NCBI GenBank assembly: GCA_016937695.1
Contig: JAFGWC010000073.1
Coordinates: forward strand, 1-50,531
Origin: Bacteroidales bacterium
Lineage (GTDB): Bacteria; Bacteroidota; Bacteroidia; Bacteroidales; NBLH01
Direction: 5' to 3'
Length of the DNA: 50,531 nucleotides
In this document: piece by piece, positions 37,526 to 49,611 of the stretch
Layout of the letters: each line of letters opens with the position of its first letter
Numbering within the stretch: the stretch's first letter is position 1
The notes under the pieces: generated by a model
Told to the model about the DNA's origin: nothing
Databases searched by the model: none
What the model saw: only the letters and a program-made list of their open reading frames with translations
Made by a program: the position numbers and the translations under genes

Positions 37526-37783
37526 ATGAAGCAAAATACAACATCGACTGAAAGAATTAAAGAATATGTAATAAACAATGCAGCAGGCACCAATAATTTT
37601 CAAATTGATGAAAGCACTCTCCTATTTGAAGAAGGACTATTTGATTCCATGGGATTTATGGCATTGATTGCATTTCTTCAGGAGGAGTATAATATCCAAG
37701 CTAATGATGATGAGCTTGTTGTAGAGAATTTTGAATCAATAAATGCAATTGTAACTTACGTTAATAAAAAATTATCAGCTTAA
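37526..37783 (+). CDS. Acyl carrier protein (dedicated to the downstream cluster)
   Basis: 85-aa carrier protein. The phosphopantetheine attachment Ser is in LFEEGLFDSMGFMALIAFLQ, in the usual place at the start of helix 2, and VVENFESINAIVTYV is the expected C-terminal helix. It is more divergent than the fatty-acid AcpP (the usual D-S-L is D-S-M here) and lies in a run of five co-directional genes, 9 bp before the asparagine-synthetase-like gene, so it is probably a pathway-specific carrier charged by the AMP ligase at 40.9-42.3 kb. fabF, the usual neighbour of AcpP, is absent. Confidence 0.88.
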   Translation: MKQNTTSTERIKEYVINNAAGTNNFQIDESTLLFEEGLFDSMGFMALIAFLQEEYNIQANDDELVVENFESINAIVTYVNKKLSA

Positions 37784-37792
37784 TTTATATAT

Positions 37793-39772
37793 ATGTGCGG
37801 TATTGCCGGAGGCACTAGATTTAATTCTGATGTATCTTTAAATGATGACATCATGATTAAAATGCTTGCCAGAATAAGACATAGAGGCCCTGATGAATGG
37901 GGCATTTATAATAGCGAAAATGTTTCACTTGGAAATGTACGTTTAAGCATCATTGATATTAATACAGGTCAGCAACCATTATCTAACTCAAAATCAAATA
38001 TTTGGATTGCATATAATGGCGAAGTTTTTAATTATATTGAATTAAGAAAAGAGCTTGAAAATAAAGGATATAAATTCAAAACTAAAAGTGATACTGAAGT
38101 TATTGTATTAATGTATGAAGAATATGGTATTGATTTTATAAACAGATTAAACGGACAGTTCGCTTTTTCAATTTGGGATAAAAGGACTCAGGAATTAATA
38201 TTAGTAAGAGACAGACTGGGAATAAGACCTTTGTTTTACACTAATAATAACGGAAATATCTATTTCGCTTCTGAAATTAAATCTTTGTTTGAACATCCAA
38301 AAATCAATGCAAAATTAAGTTCTCAATCTTTATTTCAAACATTTACATTCTGGACAACGATTAGCCCAAACACTGCTTTCGAAAACATATTTGAAATTCC
38401 GGCTGGACATTATATGATTTTTTCAAAAAAGAAACAAGAAATAAAACAATATTGGGATTTAAATTTTCCGAAAAAAAATCTCCATTCTCAATTGAGTTTT
38501 GAAGAAGCTACTGATGAGTTTAAAGTGCTTCTTGAAGATTCGGTTAGAATAAGACTTAGAGCTGACGTTCCTGTTGCAGCTTATTTGAGTGGAGGAATTG
38601 ATTCTACAATTACAACTTCTTTAATACGTAATATTGTTCCAGACTTATTGCAAACTTTTTCAATAGGTTTTAATGATAAAGATTATGACGAAAGCAAATA
38701 TCAAAATTTAGCTTCGGAGTATTTTAAAACAAATCATACAGGATTTAAAATAAACAATTCTGAAATTGCTGATGTTTTTCCTGAAGTAATTTGGCATAGT
38801 GAAATGCCCTTGCTTCGGACATCGCCGGCACCAATGTTTAGCTTATCAAAAAAAGTAAGAGAAAATAACATTAAAGTTGTAATAACAGGCGAAGGAGCAG
38901 ACGAACTTTTAGCAGGATATAATATTTTTAAAGAAACAAAAATAAGGCATTTTTGGGCAAATCAGGCAAACTCTAAATACAGACCTTTGCTGTTAAAAAA
39001 ACTTTATCCGTATATTCCTCAATTACAATCGGCTAACAGTAGTATTTTAAAATTATTTTTCGGATATAAACTATCAGAAACGAATCTTCCAACATACTCA
39101 CATTTGTTAAGGTGGAATAATGGAAATCACATAAAAAAGTATTTTTCGCAAAACATTATAAATGAGACTTTAAACTATAATCCGGCACAAGAGCTTAATG
39201 ATAAATTAAAAGATAAATTTAAGGACTATGATAATTTATCAAAAGCCCAATGGCTTGAAACTAAGATATTTATGAGTGGATATTTACTTTCTTCACAAGG
39301 CGATAGAATGGCTATGGCTAATTCAGTTGAAGGCAGATATCCTTTTCTGGATTACAGATTAGTTGAGTTCTGCACTTCTTTAAACCCTGATTTTAAGTTA
39401 AAGGGTTTAGATGAGAAATATTTATTGAAAAAAGCATTTGAAAATAAAATTCCAAAACAAATTTTTCAAAGGCCAAAACAAGCATACAGAGCACCAATCA
39501 AAAATAGTTTTATTTCAGAAAATTCAAATGATTATATTAAATCTGTTTTAAACCAAAATACTATTAAAAATCAAGGAATATTTGATTCTGATAAAGTTAG
39601 AGTTTTGCTTGAGAAATTAAAATCAAACAAAGAATCATCAGAAACAGAAGATATGGCACTAACGGCCATATTATCAACAAGTTTACTATACGATTTGTTT
39701 ATAAATAATGAAGGATATAAAAAAAATATAGATACAAAAAACTGTAAAATTATTAATGATTTTTCTAAATAA
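37793..39772 (+). CDS. Asparagine synthetase (glutamine-hydrolysing) homologue
   Basis: 659-aa AsnB-family enzyme: an N-terminal class II glutaminase with Cys2 as nucleophile (MCGIAGG), IRHRGPDEWGIY and IAYNGEVFNYIELRKELE; and a C-terminal synthetase domain with PP-loop AAYLSGGIDSTITTSL, ITGEGADELLAGYNIF and ANSVEGRYPFLDYRLVEF. Ammonia released from glutamine would amidate an AMP-activated carboxylate. Free asparagine may be the product, but the position between an ACP and a NadE-like gene in a glycan-type cluster points to amidation of a sugar acid or carrier-bound acid instead, as with AsnB-like proteins of O-antigen clusters. The catalytic residues look intact. It starts 9 bp after the ACP stop. 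Confidence 0.92.
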   Translation: MCGIAGGTRFNSDVSLNDDIMIKMLARIRHRGPDEWGIYNSENVSLGNVRLSIIDINTGQQPLSNSKSNIWIAYNGEVFNYIELRKELENKGYKFKTKSDTEVIVLMYEEYGIDFINRLNGQFAFSIWDKRTQELILVRDRLGIRPLFYTNNNGNIYFASEIKSLFEHPKINAKLSSQSLFQTFTFWTTISPNTAFENIFEIPAGHYMIFSKKKQEIKQYWDLNFPKKNLHSQLSFEEATDEFKVLLEDSVRIRLRADVPVAAYLSGGIDSTITTSLIRNIVPDLLQTFSIGFNDKDYDESKYQNLASEYFKTNHTGFKINNSEIADVFPEVIWHSEMPLLRTSPAPMFSLSKKVRENNIKVVITGEGADELLAGYNIFKETKIRHFWANQANSKYRPLLLKKLYPYIPQLQSANSSILKLFFGYKLSETNLPTYSHLLRWNNGNHIKKYFSQNIINETLNYNPAQELNDKLKDKFKDYDNLSKAQWLETKIFMSGYLLSSQGDRMAMANSVEGRYPFLDYRLVEFCTSLNPDFKLKGLDEKYLLKKAFENKIPKQIFQRPKQAYRAPIKNSFISENSNDYIKSVLNQNTIKNQGIFDSDKVRVLLEKLKSNKESSETEDMALTAILSTSLLYDLFINNEGYKKNIDTKNCKIINDFSK

Positions 39773-39813
39773 AATTTAAACTATTATAGATTATAATATA
39801 AAATATTAGAGCA

Positions 39814-40797
39814 ATGAAAAACAAACCATTTACTAAAAACATTATCAAACTTGAAGATATTGAAAAAACATGCAACAATATCATTGAAAAGCTTAAAGAT
39901 GATGTTTACAACAAATTACAAAGAAAAGGTGGAATTGTAGGGATTAGTGGCGGAATTGATTCATCAGTAACTCTGGCTCTGGCAGTAAAAGCTTTTGGAA
40001 AAGAAAATGTAACAGGCATATTATTACCAGAAAAAGACAGCAGTCCTGATAGCGCAATGCTTGCGAATAAACTTGCCGAGAAATTTGGAATAAAAACTAT
40101 AGTTGAAAACATTTCAGATGCATTAGACGGATTTGGATGTTACAGAAGAAGAGATGAAGCAATGCAAAGAGTTTTTCCTGAATACGATCCAAAAACATAC
40201 AAATCAAAAATAGCAATAAAACAAGACGTATTGAATCAAAATATGCCATCAATATTTTCGCTTGTGATAATTGACAAAAACGGCAATCAAAAAAGTAAAA
40301 TGCTTCCAATGAATGAATATCTGCAAATTGTTGCCGCATCTAATTTTAAACAAAGAAGCAGAATGTCAATGCTGTACTATCATGCTGAGGCTCTGCATTA
40401 TGCTGTTATCGGAACACCAAACAAACACGAAGTAGAGCAAGGATTTTTTGTGAAATATGGTGATGGCGGTGCAGATGTTATGCCAATTGGAGATTTGTAT
40501 AAAAGTCAAGTATACGAAATAGCTGCTTATTTAGGTGTTCCTCAGGAGATTATCGACAGAACACCAACTACCGACACTTATAGTGCAGAACAAACGCAGG
40601 AAGAATTTTTCTATCAATTACCTTTTGAATTAATGGACTTAATATGGTATGGATGGGAAAATGACTATGATACAGGCGATGTGGCTTATGCTTTAAATCT
40701 TAAGCCTAATCAAATAGAACACGTTTATAAAACCTTTGAAAGAAAAATGAAAACTACTGAATACTTAAGACTAGCTCCTATTAGAGACTATAAATAA
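39814..40797 (+). CDS. NadE-like NH3-dependent ATP-pyrophosphatase (NAD synthase family)
   Basis: 327-aa member of the NAD synthase family without a nitrilase-type glutaminase domain. The PP-loop is GISGGIDSSVTLALAV; NFKQRSRMSMLYYHAEALHY, VIGTPNKHEVEQGFFVKYGD and GGADVMPIGDLYKSQVYEIA follow the NadE order. A segment of about 60 residues (roughly 105-165, including GCYRRRDEAMQRVFPEYD and MLPMNEYLQIV) looks longer than in short NadE enzymes such as that of Bacillus. It may make NAD, but the setting (ACP, AsnB-like, AMP ligase, sugar transferase) suggests a specialised amidation. It could use ammonia supplied by the AsnB-like glutaminase. It lies 41 bp after the preceding gene. Confidence 0.85.
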   Translation: MKNKPFTKNIIKLEDIEKTCNNIIEKLKDDVYNKLQRKGGIVGISGGIDSSVTLALAVKAFGKENVTGILLPEKDSSPDSAMLANKLAEKFGIKTIVENISDALDGFGCYRRRDEAMQRVFPEYDPKTYKSKIAIKQDVLNQNMPSIFSLVIIDKNGNQKSKMLPMNEYLQIVAASNFKQRSRMSMLYYHAEALHYAVIGTPNKHEVEQGFFVKYGDGGADVMPIGDLYKSQVYEIAAYLGVPQEIIDRTPTTDTYSAEQTQEEFFYQLPFELMDLIWYGWENDYDTGDVAYALNLKPNQIEHVYKTFERKMKTTEYLRLAPIRDYK

Positions 40798-40875
40798 GTA
40801 TAGCGTATAAAATTAGGACATTTAAAGTTTTAAGTAAAAAGCACTAAATTAAAATAAAAATATAAACATTTGATA

Positions 40876-42348
40876 ATGAATGCGATAGATTATTTTTTTG
40901 AAGATTATAAAAATTCGGAGAAAGCATTTTTATTAAATAAAAATGAACAAATTAGTTATTCTGAACTTTTTAACAAAACAATTTCTTTATCTGAGTTTTT
41001 AAAATCTGAAATAGGTGAAAATAATAACATTATCTTATTTAGTACAAATTCATTATTCTTTATAATCTCGTATCTGGCAATTATTAAATCGGGGAATATT
41101 TGCGTTCCAATTAATCCTGTATCAAAAGAACAAGTAATAAATTTTGTTATTTCAGAAACAAATCCAAAATTAATTTTCTTGCAAAAAAGATTTATTGAAA
41201 AATTCAATGAATTTAAGATTGAAATTATTTCCGATAATGATTTTGAACTTAAAACTCAGAATAAAAATAATAAAGACCAAAAAGAAAACAATATTACTGT
41301 AAATTTTGACAAAGAAAGGCTTGCAGAAATAATATACACTTCTGGCTCAACGGCATTCCCAAAAGGTGTTATGCTTAGCCACAAAAACTTAATTGCAAAT
41401 ACAGAATCTATAATTAAGTATTTGAAACTGACTGATAAAGATACAATGTTGGTTGTTTTGCCGTTTTATTATTGCTATGGATTATCTTTATTGCATACAC
41501 ATTTAAAAGTTGGAGGTTCTATTGTGCTAAATAACACATTCATGCTAATAGGTTCAGTAATTAATAATTTAAAAGATTATAAATGCACAGGTTTTGCAGG
41601 AGTTCCAAGTCATTTTCAAATATTATTAAGAAAATCTGATTCTTTTAAAAACACCGAATTGCCTGATTTAAAATACGTTACACAAGCTGGAGGTAAATTA
41701 CATACAGTTTTCATAAGTGAATTTACAGACAATTTTAAAAACACTAAATTTTATGTAATGTATGGTCAAACTGAAGCAACAGCCAGACTATCATATCTTC
41801 CTTACGAAGATCTAAATAAAAAATTAGGTTCAATAGGCAAAGCTATTCCAAATGTAAAACTACAAATTGTAGATGAATATGGAAATGAAGTAAATAATGG
41901 TCAATTTGGCGAAATAGTTGCCAGCGGCGATAATATAATGAAAGGATATTACAACGATAAAGAGCTGACAAACAAAACAATACAAAATGGCAAATTATTT
42001 ACCGGCGATTTGGCAAAAAAAGATGAAGATGGTTATATTTATATTGTTGCAAGAAAAAAAGAAATTATTAAAGTTGGCGGTGAAAGAATAAGTCCAAAAG
42101 AAATAGAAGAAGTAATTGTTAGTATCCCTGAAGTAATTGACTGCACAATAGAAGGAGTTTATGATGAAATTTTAGGTGAAAAAATAAAAGCAATTATTGT
42201 GGTTTCGGACAAAAACAATAACGATAATTTTAAAAATAAAATATTAGAACATTGCAAAAAAAATTTATCATCGATAAAAATACCACAAGAATTGGTGCTC
42301 GAAAAAAATGTTAATGTAAATGCATCAGGGAAAAAAGTAAAAATCTAA
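40876..42348 (+). CDS. AMP-dependent acyl ligase (acyl-CoA/acyl-ACP synthetase family)
   Basis: 490-aa adenylate-forming enzyme. Core motifs: the P-loop IIYTSGSTAFPKGVMLSHKN, VVLPFYYCYGL, YVMYGQTEATARLSYLP, LFTGDLAKKDEDGYIYI, ARKKEIIKVGGERISPKEIE (hinge and C-terminal domain) and the acyl-adenylate Lys in NASGKKVKI. It activates a carboxylic acid and transfers it to a thiol; the co-oriented ACP suggests the acceptor is that carrier rather than CoA. The substrate cannot be predicted from the visible sequence. ATG 40876 is preferred over the TTG two codons upstream. No release, ketosynthase or condensation domain is present, so this is not a PKS/NRPS module. Confidence 0.9.
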   Translation: MNAIDYFFEDYKNSEKAFLLNKNEQISYSELFNKTISLSEFLKSEIGENNNIILFSTNSLFFIISYLAIIKSGNICVPINPVSKEQVINFVISETNPKLIFLQKRFIEKFNEFKIEIISDNDFELKTQNKNNKDQKENNITVNFDKERLAEIIYTSGSTAFPKGVMLSHKNLIANTESIIKYLKLTDKDTMLVVLPFYYCYGLSLLHTHLKVGGSIVLNNTFMLIGSVINNLKDYKCTGFAGVPSHFQILLRKSDSFKNTELPDLKYVTQAGGKLHTVFISEFTDNFKNTKFYVMYGQTEATARLSYLPYEDLNKKLGSIGKAIPNVKLQIVDEYGNEVNNGQFGEIVASGDNIMKGYYNDKELTNKTIQNGKLFTGDLAKKDEDGYIYIVARKKEIIKVGGERISPKEIEEVIVSIPEVIDCTIEGVYDEILGEKIKAIIVVSDKNNNDNFKNKILEHCKKNLSSIKIPQELVLEKNVNVNASGKKVKI

Positions 42349-42449
42349 ATTTAATATTTATTGGAAAAGCTATTTCGTAACCGATATAAATACATTTATC
42401 AAACAAATTTTGATTTATTTTAACTATTACTTTACTTGCATAACATATC

Positions 42450-42470
42450 ATAAATAGGAAACCTATTTAT
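42450..42470 (+). promoter_or_regulatory. Small hairpin before the sugar transferase gene
   Basis: ATAAATAGG (42450-42458) pairs perfectly with CCTATTTAT (42462-42470) around loop AAA, 23 bp upstream of the ATG. No T-run follows. It could affect translation or mRNA processing between ligase and transferase genes; the role is unknown. Confidence 0.4.
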
Positions 42471-42493
42471 TTAACTAAAAACTATTAAACTAA

Positions 42494-44047
42494 ATGCAAA
42501 ACGGAAACTTTTTTTATAAATACAATAAAGTATTTATAATTTTGTTTGACATGCTAATTGTGAGTAGTGCATTTCTGATTTTAGCATGGATAAAACCGGC
42601 AACAGTCAAATTAGTTATTCCGCATTACTACATACCTTTTCTTGTTTTTTTAAGTATCTGGCTTATTGTTTCTTCGATAATGGGAAAATATCATTTGCAA
42701 AATTTCGTAAAAAAATCTCACCTTTTATTTACAATAACTTTTATAAACTTCATAATTTTATCAATTGTAACAATATTACTTTTCGCATTAAAATTAAGTG
42801 CATATTCACGCACACTAGTTTTTGGAACAATCGCATTAAGTTTTTTAATAGAAATAATTGGTTTTAGCACAATTTTCACATGGTTAAAATTAAAAAATGA
42901 TTTTTATAAACCAGGAAATGAAATTCTGGAATCTTCAATAGAAAAAACTGATGATGATAAAATAAATAATTATTATTCATATGGAATTAAACAAATCTAT
43001 GAAAATGGATATAGGAATAATTTAATAACAAGAGAAGCAGGCGAGAAAGTTTACGATTATTTTTCAGAACACCTTAATGTTGACTCGTCTAATGTTGGAT
43101 TGATTTCCACTACAACATCTTTTAATATAGAAAATTTACAAGCTGAAAATTTAAGAGCTATTATTAATTTAAAAAAAGTTAATGATATGCGTTATATAAA
43201 TAAATTTTTTGAAGCAGTAAACAAAAAATTACCAGATGCCGGTATATTTATGGGTTGCGTAGAAACAAGCAAACAAAGATATAACAGAGTAAGCGAAAAA
43301 TTTCCTCCTTTTGTAGGTCAAATTGTAATAATGATAGATTTTGTTTTAAACAGAATATTACCTCGATTATCTTGGTTTCAAGATTTTTATTTCAATTTAA
43401 CAGGAGGCCATAAAAGAACGATTTCAAAAGCTGAAGTTCTTGGAAGATTAGTTAGCTGCGGATTTGAAATAATTGAGTATAAGGAAATTAACAAAATAAC
43501 GTATTTTGTTGTAATGAAAACTAAAGATCCTGAATACAACATTAATCCTTCATATGGGCCATTATATAAAATGCCAAGAATAGGGAAAAATGGTGATATT
43601 ATACATGTATATAAATTCAGAACTATGCACCCTTTTTCAGAATATCTTCAAGACTATGTGCTTAGATTAAATGGATACTCTGCAATAGGTAAACCTGCCG
43701 ATGATTTCAGATTAACGAAATGGGGGAAATTTATGCGCAAATTATGGTTAGATGAACTACCTCAATTACTTAATGTATTAAAAGGCGACATGGCTTTAGT
43801 TGGAACAAGACCATTATCAAAAAGAGCTTATCAGGAATATCCGGAAGATATAAAACAAATGAGAATAAAATATAAACCAGGCTGCATTCCTCCTTATGTT
43901 GCTTTATTAAAACAAGGCATGGCAGAATCAATTGATGCAGAAAGACAATATCTGAAAGATTTAACTAAACATCCAAACACAACAAATATAAGATATTTTG
44001 CCAAAGCTGTTTACAATATTATTACCAATAAAATAAGAAGTTCATAA
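42494..44047 (+). CDS. Bacterial sugar transferase (phosphoglycosyltransferase) with atypical middle domain
   Basis: 517-aa membrane protein expected to transfer a sugar phosphate from a nucleotide sugar to undecaprenyl phosphate. Four or five N-terminal helices (about 10-140) resemble WbaP-type initiators. The C-terminal catalytic part has GPLYKMPRIGKNGD, HVYKFRTMHPFSEY, LTKWGKFMRKLWLDELPQLL and KGDMALVGTRPLSKRAY, keeping the Asp-Glu pair. Between them (about 150-345) the usual nucleotide-binding domain is replaced by a segment that resembles the end of a class I methyltransferase (FFEAVNKKLPDAGIFMGC ... AEVLGRLVSCGFEIIEYKEI, TYFVVMKTK). The re-entrant helix normally just before the catalytic part is not obvious; DFVLNRILPRLSWF about 80 residues earlier may be its remnant. 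It is the last gene of the cluster. Confidence 0.85.
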   Translation: MQNGNFFYKYNKVFIILFDMLIVSSAFLILAWIKPATVKLVIPHYYIPFLVFLSIWLIVSSIMGKYHLQNFVKKSHLLFTITFINFIILSIVTILLFALKLSAYSRTLVFGTIALSFLIEIIGFSTIFTWLKLKNDFYKPGNEILESSIEKTDDDKINNYYSYGIKQIYENGYRNNLITREAGEKVYDYFSEHLNVDSSNVGLISTTTSFNIENLQAENLRAIINLKKVNDMRYINKFFEAVNKKLPDAGIFMGCVETSKQRYNRVSEKFPPFVGQIVIMIDFVLNRILPRLSWFQDFYFNLTGGHKRTISKAEVLGRLVSCGFEIIEYKEINKITYFVVMKTKDPEYNINPSYGPLYKMPRIGKNGDIIHVYKFRTMHPFSEYLQDYVLRLNGYSAIGKPADDFRLTKWGKFMRKLWLDELPQLLNVLKGDMALVGTRPLSKRAYQEYPEDIKQMRIKYKPGCIPPYVALLKQGMAESIDAERQYLKDLTKHPNTTNIRYFAKAVYNIITNKIRSS

Positions 44048-46944: not shown

Positions 46945-49611
46945 TTACGACCTAAATTTGTACGCAATTTTAAGCATAAAAATATTTTCTGATGTGGATG
47001 AAAATAGATTGTCAAAATCGCTTTTATAATTAAAATCGCCATATTCATCATATAAAGTTTTCCCTTGCGACCAAACTGCATAAATTACAGAACCGGGAAT
47101 ATACTCCCAACGAATAACCAAATTTGAACGAAATTGTTTGAAATTAAAATCAGGTTTTTCAAAACTATAATCTGAAACTCCATCTAATGACTCATCAATT
47201 AATAATAAATTATCTTCTTCTGAATATGTTATTTGAGAATCATCATAAACATACATTCTGTTTTTATACTCGTCTGCTTTGGGGTTTGTAATCATCTTAT
47301 AATCAGCATATTTACCGGCAGTTATAAATGGTGCACCATAATACTGAATGCTTAAATCAGGTGTAATGCTATACTCTAACCTTAAAGTTAAAGAAAAAGT
47401 TTTTTGAGAAATACTGCCAAATAAATATCGTTTTTCGCCATTAAATTCATCTTCTGCAATATACTGTAAATCAGACTCTTCATCAGATAAACTTGGACTT
47501 AAAACTACTGATAAATTATTAATTGGTTTATAGGTAATATCAGCCCAATAGCTAATTCCTGTGAAATAATTTTCTAATCCTTTGCTAAGAGAGGTGCCAA
47601 TTGTGAAAAATAATTTCTTTGTATTGTTTGTAGTTAAATATGCGTATGTATTCCAATTTCCAGGCAAAATTATTGAAGGTCCGCCTCTTAATGCTGTATT
47701 TGAAATTTGTTTATATTCGCCTCCTATTCCTGTTCCAAACGACCATAAGTTATTGAATTTCATCCAAGTATTAAAATTGCCTCCATCAAAAGTGTTAATT
47801 CCTCCAAAATCCCAACCTGCCCATTGGTTCATATTAATTTGCAAGTTTCGGAAAATAGAAAACGGCTTAGGGAAACTATATCCCAACCATGTATATTGAA
47901 AAACTGTATTTGCTTGTCGCAAATATCCCACATCGTTAAGCTCTAAACCAGGCGAGCGCCAAGTTATGTTTAAAGCATATCGCAAACCACTGTTAGCTTG
48001 CTTTCCGGCAGCAAAATTTCCACCTTGACCTATTAAAAAAGTAGCTGTTGAATCAATACTTACATAATTTGCATCCGGTCTTTGATAATATCTTCTCGAA
48101 GATTCTTGCTGATTTAAAATCGCTTCTGTGCTTCCTTCAATTTTACTCGCAATTAAACTTGTTGATATATAGTATTTTTTATCCTTAAAATATTGTTTGA
48201 AATCAAAACCGGCAGTTATTGCATTATCATTAAGAAAATTAAGCTGAGAATCGTCAATTTTTCGATTTGTTGTTGTAAACATAGCTCCTATAATTGTATT
48301 TCCTTTATTTATATCTTTTTGTAATCTGCCAATAAAAAAATTAGTAAATGGTTCAACAGTCTCTTTGCGCATTTCTCCATTCAAATCTATTTCAGCTTTT
48401 TCTTTATTAGTTATACTTTCAATTATTCCAACCGACCATCCATCTTTAGTTTTGCCGGTTAATTTAACAGCGCCTAAAATTCTGGTGTTCTCAGGCTCGT
48501 TAATATACTCACCATCAGACAGTTCAGGACTATAATGAGGTGTTCGTCCAATTCTTCGCGAATAAAAAAGATTATCTTGCGACCATGGACTTCCGCCTGG
48601 AGTGATGTTATAATCAGTAATATTTTTTCCTTCTATAAAAAAAGGCCTTTTTTCTTGAAAATAGCTTTCAAAAGCAGATAAATTTAACTCTGAAGGATCA
48701 GCTTCAACTTGTCCGAAATCAGGATTTATTGTAAAATCGAGAATAAAGTCGTTTGTAATTCCAATTTTGCCGTCAAGTCCGCCATTAAAACCATAATCTC
48801 TCCCATCGGCAAAAGGATTTCCAACTTCTGCTTCATAATTATCGTATTTTGCTGTTAAAAAAGGTGATATTTCGACTTGTTTTTTAGGATTTATATCAGA
48901 AATTCCATCAAGTTCGCCAAAAAGGCTAACCCAACCGGATTCGTCTTTGGATATTTTTTTCCAAAGTGATTTTTCTGAATTTCGATAAAACTCTCTTTCT
49001 ACTTGAACTCCCCATTTTTGATGAAAATTATTTCCAAATCGTAATTGGCTAAATGGAATTTTAAATTCTGCACTCCAGCCATCTACATCTATATTTGTTT
49101 TAGCATACCAAATTGGATCCCAGCTATCGTCAAAATTATCGCCATCGTTTGTAAAAATGCCATCGTTTTTAACTCCAACAGCATTTACAAAAAACACAAA
49201 TGCTGTTCTTTTATCAAAATAACTATCTATATGAATTCCAACTTTATCGCCTTCCCAAGAATCTCTTCTTGTCATTCTCCTTTCAATTTTTTCGGGATTT
49301 GTATCGTAAGATTTAATTGCAACGTACAAATTATTGTCGTCGTAAATAATTCTGAATTTTGTTTCTACGCTAGGTTTTTCGCCTTCATTTGGTTCAAATT
49401 GAACAAAATCGCCTTGCCATTCTGAGATATTCCAAATATCTTCATCTAATATACCATCTATTATTGGTGGTTTTGAGTTTATTTTTTTTGTTGAATAGCA
49501 TTTTATTTTTTTTTCTGATGTTTCATTAAACTTTCTTGATATAAATCTATCCTGAGCATTAGAGTTTAAGAAAAATATGAAGGAAATCAAAAATAATATA
49601 CTTTTTAACAT
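46945..49611 (-). CDS. DUF5916 outer-membrane protein with N-terminal CBM9-like domain
   Basis: 888-aa exported protein. Signal peptide about 1-19 (LNSNAQ). An N-terminal carbohydrate-binding-9-like (DOMON-type) domain (about 35-230) has KPPIIDGILDEDIWNISEWQ, FRIIYDDNNLYVAIKSYD and WYAKTNIDVDGWSAEFKIPF. The remainder (about 240-888) is a DUF5916 beta-barrel: FDFTINPDFGQVEADPSELN, FFIEGKNI, LFYSRRIGRTPHY, and many aromatic-rich strands to the C-terminal FMLKIAYKFRS. The family is common in Bacteroidota; ligand and function are not established, though sugar or glycan binding is plausible. It is monocistronic, convergent with the preceding small gene and separated from the adenylate kinase gene by about 170 bp containing only a weak inverted repeat. 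Confidence 0.88.
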   Translation of the reverse strand: MLKSILFLISFIFFLNSNAQDRFISRKFNETSEKKIKCYSTKKINSKPPIIDGILDEDIWNISEWQGDFVQFEPNEGEKPSVETKFRIIYDDNNLYVAIKSYDTNPEKIERRMTRRDSWEGDKVGIHIDSYFDKRTAFVFFVNAVGVKNDGIFTNDGDNFDDSWDPIWYAKTNIDVDGWSAEFKIPFSQLRFGNNFHQKWGVQVEREFYRNSEKSLWKKISKDESGWVSLFGELDGISDINPKKQVEISPFLTAKYDNYEAEVGNPFADGRDYGFNGGLDGKIGITNDFILDFTINPDFGQVEADPSELNLSAFESYFQEKRPFFIEGKNITDYNITPGGSPWSQDNLFYSRRIGRTPHYSPELSDGEYINEPENTRILGAVKLTGKTKDGWSVGIIESITNKEKAEIDLNGEMRKETVEPFTNFFIGRLQKDINKGNTIIGAMFTTTNRKIDDSQLNFLNDNAITAGFDFKQYFKDKKYYISTSLIASKIEGSTEAILNQQESSRRYYQRPDANYVSIDSTATFLIGQGGNFAAGKQANSGLRYALNITWRSPGLELNDVGYLRQANTVFQYTWLGYSFPKPFSIFRNLQINMNQWAGWDFGGINTFDGGNFNTWMKFNNLWSFGTGIGGEYKQISNTALRGGPSIILPGNWNTYAYLTTNNTKKLFFTIGTSLSKGLENYFTGISYWADITYKPINNLSVVLSPSLSDEESDLQYIAEDEFNGEKRYLFGSISQKTFSLTLRLEYSITPDLSIQYYGAPFITAGKYADYKMITNPKADEYKNRMYVYDDSQITYSEEDNLLLIDESLDGVSDYSFEKPDFNFKQFRSNLVIRWEYIPGSVIYAVWSQGKTLYDEYGDFNYKSDFDNLFSSTSENIFMLKIAYKFRS

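Follow-up and report, generated by a model that had tools for sequence, protein, structure and literature searches.

A four-gene set encoding an acyl carrier protein, AsnB-like and NadE-like enzymes and an AMP-forming ligase recurs across bacterial phyla and may supply amide-bearing groups to cell-surface glycans

Introduction

The uronamide synthases WbpS and WbqG are AsnB-family glutamine amidotransferases of glycan biosynthesis, and in Porphyromonas gingivalis the linking sugar of the type IX secretion system (T9SS) depends on WbpS (PGN_1234) for its uronamide, according to the excerpted text of PMC7468200. This is the nearest experimentally supported parallel that we found to a gene set in a stretch of 50,531 nucleotides from a Bacteroidales bacterium (GCA_016937695.1, contig JAFGWC010000073.1), which is called the window here. 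The set, referred to below as the cassette, encodes an acyl carrier protein (ACP), an AsnB-like glutamine amidotransferase, a NadE-like ATP-pyrophosphatase and an AMP-forming acyl ligase, and a phosphoglycosyltransferase (PGT) gene follows it (Table 1). Compared by description only, WbpS and WbqG share with the cassette an AsnB-family enzyme, but in the excerpt of PMC7468200 they are described without an ACP, a ligase and a NadE-like protein.

Several other systems resemble parts of the cassette. Among the exopolysaccharide genes associated with XrtA/PEP-CTERM, TIGR03098 (exosortase-associated ligase) gives the cassette ligase its top NCBIfam match and TIGR03108 (amidotransferase) is the best specialised model for the AsnB-like protein; however, the two proteins stay below the curated cut-offs (329 bits against 592.35, and 449.6 against 816.9), as do four other cassette AsnB proteins at 409–448 bits against TIGR03108, and it is the NadE-like partner that defines the cassette. 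The D-alanylation system Dlt also has a ligase and a carrier protein, and some copies of the cassette contain an MBOAT gene, one of which was scored as DltB-like. Unlike Dlt, the cassette adds two amide-forming ATP-pyrophosphatases, its ACP reaches 32.1 bits against the DltC model NF003464 (cut-off 68), and the Dlt trio of ligase, carrier protein and the MBOAT protein DltB was not found at the window locus. The NH3-dependent NAD synthetase NadE has the same fold and the same ATP-loop/SGGxDS motifs as the NadE-like protein, but the latter carries an inserted segment and a changed lid motif and shares genomes with another NadE.

Results

Relatives of the locus were compared at 95 loci, consisting of the window, 11 loci from a Bacteroidota sample, 80 from named genomes (the best 80 of 198 confirmed relatives) and three from plasmids. 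Judged by record title, the best 80 belong to Bacteroidota, Ignavibacteria, Chloroflexota, Acidobacteria, Planctomycetota, Nitrospira, Pseudomonadota and other groups, and many are metagenome assemblies. The results showed that the ACP, AsnB-like, NadE-like and ligase genes lay together on one strand within 9 kb at 62 of the 95 loci, and that the NadE-like gene had at least one core partner at 89. Around it, the ligase was found at 83 loci, AsnB at 79 and the ACP at 72, and a PGT of any kind at 14. Flanking sequence of 8 kb or more on each side of the NadE-like gene was available at 52 loci, and among these the set was complete on one strand in 43 and on either strand in 45. The 62 complete loci, 58 of which span less than 8 kb, displayed ten gene orders, so inherited order alone does not account for the recurrence of the core set. 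Twenty segments of 20 kb, cut at round coordinates from seven of these Bacteroidota genomes, served as controls, and none of them contained a member of the NadE-like, ligase or AsnB family. The ACP, AsnB-like, NadE-like and AMP-ligase genes are a real recurring unit. The initial annotation had expected all five genes to recur together, which held for these four and failed for the sugar transferase; its dedicated unit of carrier protein, ligase and double amidation does recur across loci, with the pairing of AsnB and NadE-like enzymes as the hallmark.

In the phylum sample, the NadE-like gene (NF002048) was found in 12 of 296 Bacteroidota genomes, the window genome included. Outside Bacteroidota, sets annotated as asnB, acyl carrier protein, ligase and nadE stand alone in Sinorhizobium meliloti and Nitratireductor, the S. 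meliloti copy lying approximately 2.6 kb upstream of minC. A phage origin was considered and dropped: none of 149 pattern-matching IMG/VR stretches encodes a confirmed relative.

Single loci displayed further peculiarities. In L022 (7469-9450) the AsnB-like gene is split into two open reading frames (ORFs) and the ligase is on the other strand, and the cassette of this genome (G236) looks decayed. The ligase ORF of two Nitrospira loci (L097:6749-9895 and L098:6723-9860) reaches approximately 1048 aa, and that of L097 contains two AMP-binding domains. The locus L112 is labelled Bacillus subtilis SK6B4, yet the sizes of its flanking ORFs are those of the Brucellaceae locus L115, and the assembly is probably mislabelled or contaminated.

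The catalytic motifs of the four core proteins are conserved in their families. In a 67-member alignment of the ACP family, the D, S and G of the DS.G motif are each at least 95% conserved. The AsnB-like protein has the N-terminal Cys glutaminase and SGGxDS synthetase domains of asparagine synthetase B and scores 528.8 bits against TIGR01536 (cut-off 267.1). Its 72-member family conserves SGG.DS and GEGaDE, and the MCG start was present in 67 of the 72 after trimming to that motif; the conserved residues near the synthetase site differ from those of E. coli AsnB, and substrate specificity cannot be read from them. The ligase family retains the TSG.T loop and a C-terminal GK.

The NadE-like protein scores 442.6 bits against NF002048 (cut-off 313), and its family retains SGG.DS and GFFVK.GDG. 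The segment that it has in addition to E. coli NadE contains invariant Y110 and K132, and its lid also differs from that of the E. coli enzyme. The best Foldseek matches of its AlphaFold model (predicted local distance difference test, pLDDT, 93.4) were NAD/NMN synthetases (best E 1e-19). The protein is therefore a NadE-fold ATP-pyrophosphatase, the acid substrate of which may differ from that of NadE.

Acyltransferase, methyltransferase and exosortase genes accompany some of the cassettes. Some copies have an MBOAT gene within the cassette or beside it. Those within belong to L044, L050, L054, L055 and L063, and in L050, L054 and L063 they face the other way; the L050 protein was scored by Pfam, and the L054 protein reached 170.9 bits against the DltB model TIGR04091, below the cut-off of 375. 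A family with a GNAT-like tested member (from L115) is found no more than 1.5 kb from 10 of the 95 loci, seven of which are labelled alphaproteobacterial. Five cassettes (L044, L055, L060, L062 with two copies, and L067) contain a PrmC-like methyltransferase gene. The MBOAT gene of L060 and the PrmC-like gene of L069 are left out of these lists, because extra ligase hits had widened the span there. The NPPY motif is present in five of the six PrmC-like copies and missing from one L062 copy. In all five of these genomes, another PrmC elsewhere scored better (231–260 bits) than the coordinate-matched cassette copy (192–205 bits), and the cassette copy is therefore a paralogue. PrmC enzymes transfer a methyl group to the amide nitrogen of a glutamine, so the presence of a PrmC-like gene fits a carboxamide product and serves as a hint at one. 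One neighbour family, represented by a tested member that is an exosortase, was found near the cassette at 6 of the 95 loci and was unseen at the other 89. The window genome gave a single partial match to an exosortase (32.5 bits against a cut-off of 25.7) and 34 matches to T9SS tails over the cut-off.

Near the L098 cassette we also observed a gene that combines an exosortase domain with DUF3485. Two more families, F26 (L054:14917-15774) and F14 (L104:8809-9600), occur among cassette genes and display HHSTG/HQSVG and SHP/GHLN motifs. By eye they had been taken for SGNH hydrolases, but GDSL matched one of six members (E 7e-4) and OSK one of five (0.029) with no convincing PDB match, and the assignment was not used.

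The fifth gene of the window was analyzed separately. The initial annotation had named a transferase of the PglC/WbaP type, and the C-terminal domain agrees with this: D420/E421, the Asp-Glu (DE) dyad that is catalytic in monotopic phosphoglycosyltransferases, is shared by all 23 aligned sequences, and Foldseek matched the protein model (pLDDT 77.4) to PglC (E 1e-8). Unlike PglC and WbaP, however, the protein carries a methyltransferase-like domain in front (best match to S-adenosylmethionine methyltransferases at E 7e-4), which is an unusual fusion, and its match to PF02397 begins at profile position 34, leaving the first 33 positions unmatched, whereas the three other PGTs of the window genome match from position 1. 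In the model, helices 272–303 could stand in for the N-terminal re-entrant membrane helix of the domain.

Homologues of this fusion (E <1e-50) were found in 22 of the 296 Bacteroidota genomes and the cassette NadE in 12, and they share three (G000, which is the window genome, G109 and G132); the hypergeometric P for this overlap is 0.05, and 0.18 without the window genome. In the window, L026 and L048 such a fusion is no more than 7 kb from a cassette, facing the other way in L048. Because the two share so few genomes, the transferase is placed outside the unit, and a five-gene unit was rejected; the fifth gene is accessory, not core. Most members of the fusion family (window 42494-44047; L127-L147) occur without the cassette, and some of approximately 640–680 aa have a longer N-terminal part.

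Discussion

We propose, with a probability of about one half, that the conserved four-gene cassette uses a carrier protein of its own to build an amide-bearing group, and that this group is passed to a cell-surface glycan. The AMP-ligase would adenylate a carboxylic acid and load it onto the phosphopantetheine arm of the ACP. The AsnB-like enzyme would draw ammonia from glutamine for an amidation, and the NadE-like enzyme would perform a second, ATP-pyrophosphatase amidation; the product or its acceptor would carry a pair of carboxamides, or a single one plus an amide bond of another kind. An acyltransferase that may vary by lineage (MBOAT, GNAT-like or unlinked) would move the group to the glycan, and in the window genome the adjoining PGT fusion may start that glycan. 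A bolder version of this proposal, which we consider tentative and would not bet on at even odds, is a Dlt-like glycan modification spanning phyla, in which acyl groups bearing carboxamides (N-methylated in some lineages) would replace D-alanine, being made by two ATP-pyrophosphatases, one of them from NAD synthesis, and delivered from an ACP to surface polysaccharide.

The glycan destination was evaluated on 20-kb stretches from 10 of the 11 Bacteroidota loci (one of 4.7 kb was dropped) and from the 38 of 80 named loci with at least 20.9 kb. PGT, Wzc, Wza or exosortase families were present in 6 of the 10, 15 of the 38 and none of the 20 controls (Fisher P 0.0004 for Bacteroidota and 0.001 for named loci), a comparison that is biased toward the cases because the profile hidden Markov models (HMMs) were built from case loci and the controls are Bacteroidota only. 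The general-neighbour families F18, F19 and F20 were found in 3, 6 and 2 of the 20 controls, 3, 3 and 2 of the 10 Bacteroidota loci and 4, 5 and 6 of the 38 named loci. For a protein as short as the ACP, the HMM threshold of E 1e-10 proved too strict in this test (4 of 10, 16 of 38), and the 95-locus count was used. The glycan destination given in the initial annotation is supported by exopolysaccharide neighbours at part of the loci, but not by the Sinorhizobium and Nitratireductor copies. That annotation also suggested that the acid would be amidated while held on the ACP and then joined to an undecaprenyl-linked sugar.

Besides the bias of that comparison, a number of observations count against the proposed route. 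Exopolysaccharide neighbours of these families are lacking at 23 of the 38 named loci, and the Sinorhizobium and Nitratireductor copies lie outside exopolysaccharide clusters. The contig of the window has no MBOAT gene, the three MBOAT matches of the genome being on other contigs, and none of the window ORFs falls in the GNAT family. The cassette is incomplete at 33 of the 95 loci, where short ACPs may have escaped detection; nine of these (L021, L022, L023, L057, L080, L086, L087, L088 and L102) are incomplete despite at least 8 kb on both sides, the missing core gene sitting on the other strand in L022 and L088, and at six loci (L083, L084, L093, L100, L108 and L111) no core partner shares the strand of the NadE-like gene. 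Pairwise identities over 48 loci point both ways: in favour of the set, they correlated between NadE-like and AsnB (rho 0.75), NadE-like and ACP (0.66) and AsnB and ACP (0.62), while the ligase followed the other core genes weakly (0.37–0.45), all of these values being given without unrelated gene pairs as control. The substrates, the order of steps, the number of amides and the transfer to a glycan are what we infer from genes and motifs.

A reading as housekeeping paralogues that were brought together by chance, with the NadE-like protein serving as a second NAD synthetase and the AsnB-like one as an ordinary asparagine synthetase, is very improbable. The annotation models NF002048 and TIGR01536 do name the proteins so, and the NadE-like protein keeps the GFFVKxGDG motif and the NAD synthetase fold; however, the two recur with an ACP and a ligase across phyla, and the insertion with invariant Y110 and K132 is family-wide. 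That these would not be the only asparagine and NAD synthetases of the genome had been anticipated, and the window genome (G000, 99.62% complete) indeed encodes a separate NadE on contig C7, AsnA on contig C120 and, on contig C76, a second ACP and a second full AsnB-family gene, the adjoining ORFs of which look glycosyltransferase-like by eye. The NadE-like gene was found in 11 further Bacteroidota genomes, each of which also has another NadE outside the cassette over the TIGR00552 cut-off, the weakest being that of G109 (83.8 bits against 63.65, within a 647-aa frame), so an extra NadE is present in 12 of 12. Because these other NadE, AsnA and AsnB-family genes are present, we consider a housekeeping role of the cassette copies unlikely.

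Two further explanations deserve more weight, the likelier of which is still improbable at about one chance in four: the cassette would yield a free small molecule, such as an osmolyte, a signal or a siderophore-like amide, and its location in exopolysaccharide clusters would be secondary. The Sinorhizobium and Nitratireductor replicon copies without directly adjacent glycan genes are consistent with this, and AsnB-family enzymes make the osmolyte NAGGN, with the window protein scoring 382.1 bits against TIGR03104, below the cut-off of 570.1. It is opposed by the excess of neighbouring PGT, Wzc, Wza and exosortase genes, as judged with case-biased HMMs, and by the MBOAT gene among the cassette genes of some copies. 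Slightly more doubtful still is sugar amidation, in which the AsnB-like enzyme would be a uronamide synthase like Porphyromonas WbpS, the NadE-like enzyme would amidate another nucleotide-linked acid, and the ligase and ACP would give an N-acyl or aminoacyl group to the same sugar. The natural substrate of NadE is nucleotide-linked, and the T9SS tail matches of the window genome would suit such a role. The T9SS linking sugar that requires the AsnB-type PGN_1234 for its uronamide also bears a seryl group in the excerpt of PMC7468200. Against sugar amidation, the AsnB-like protein of the window does not reach the TIGR03108 cut-off, and the NadE-like gene is rare among the sampled Bacteroidota and is also present in other phyla. 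T9SS is generally taken as far commoner in Bacteroidota than the NadE-like gene, and a role in the T9SS linking sugar is for this reason kept only as a rival to carrier-bound synthesis for a surface glycan.

No description of the four-gene set was found in the open-licence literature, a coverage that leaves aside subscription papers and preprints and in which a part of the two longer result lists was judged, by title and the start of the abstract; the text of PMC1569441 mentions no asparagine synthase, acyl carrier, AMP-binding, acyl-CoA or amidotransferase. We provisionally regard the set as undescribed. Annotation pipelines label its genes asparagine synthase and NAD(+) synthase, and a widespread pathway may hide under these housekeeping names. 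If the proposal is true, a NAD synthetase fold has been recruited for a surface or secondary metabolite, and the chemistry by which carrier proteins help to decorate polysaccharides is richer than D-alanylation and O-acetylation. The small size of the cassette and its presence in the tractable S. meliloti make it directly testable.

Gene layout of the window

The five co-directional genes with short gaps described in the initial annotation were confirmed by ORF coordinates and domain matches (Table 1), families being assigned with Pfam and NCBIfam profiles. The intergenic gaps are 9, 41, 72 and 145 bases. The ligase ORF is listed from a TTG, and an ATG follows at 40876.

Table 1. Positions and domain matches of the five genes in the window.
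Feature	Position	Strand	Description
ACP, core gene 1	37526..37783	+	85 aa; PP-binding PF00550, 27.4 bits (cut-off 20.8); phosphopantetheine site DSMG
AsnB-like glutamine amidotransferase, core gene 2	37793..39772	+	659 aa; GATase_7 PF13537 and Asn_synthase PF00733; MCG start, SGGIDS motif
NadE-like ATP-pyrophosphatase, core gene 3	39814..40797	+	327 aa; NAD_synthase; subfamily NF002048; insert at about residues 107-165
AMP-forming acyl ligase (ANL superfamily), core gene 4	40870..42348	+	492 aa; AMP-binding and AMP-binding_C
Predicted membrane N-terminus, methyltransferase-like domain and phosphoglycosyltransferase domain, accessory	42494..44047	+	517 aa; Bac_transf PF02397

Downstream, a convergent gene encodes a putative cyclase (PF04199). 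The upstream neighbour on the other strand looks like ribosomal protein S1, and an 888-aa ORF on the minus strand (46945-49611) looks like a carbohydrate-binding or outer-membrane type protein, both by eye with no search made.

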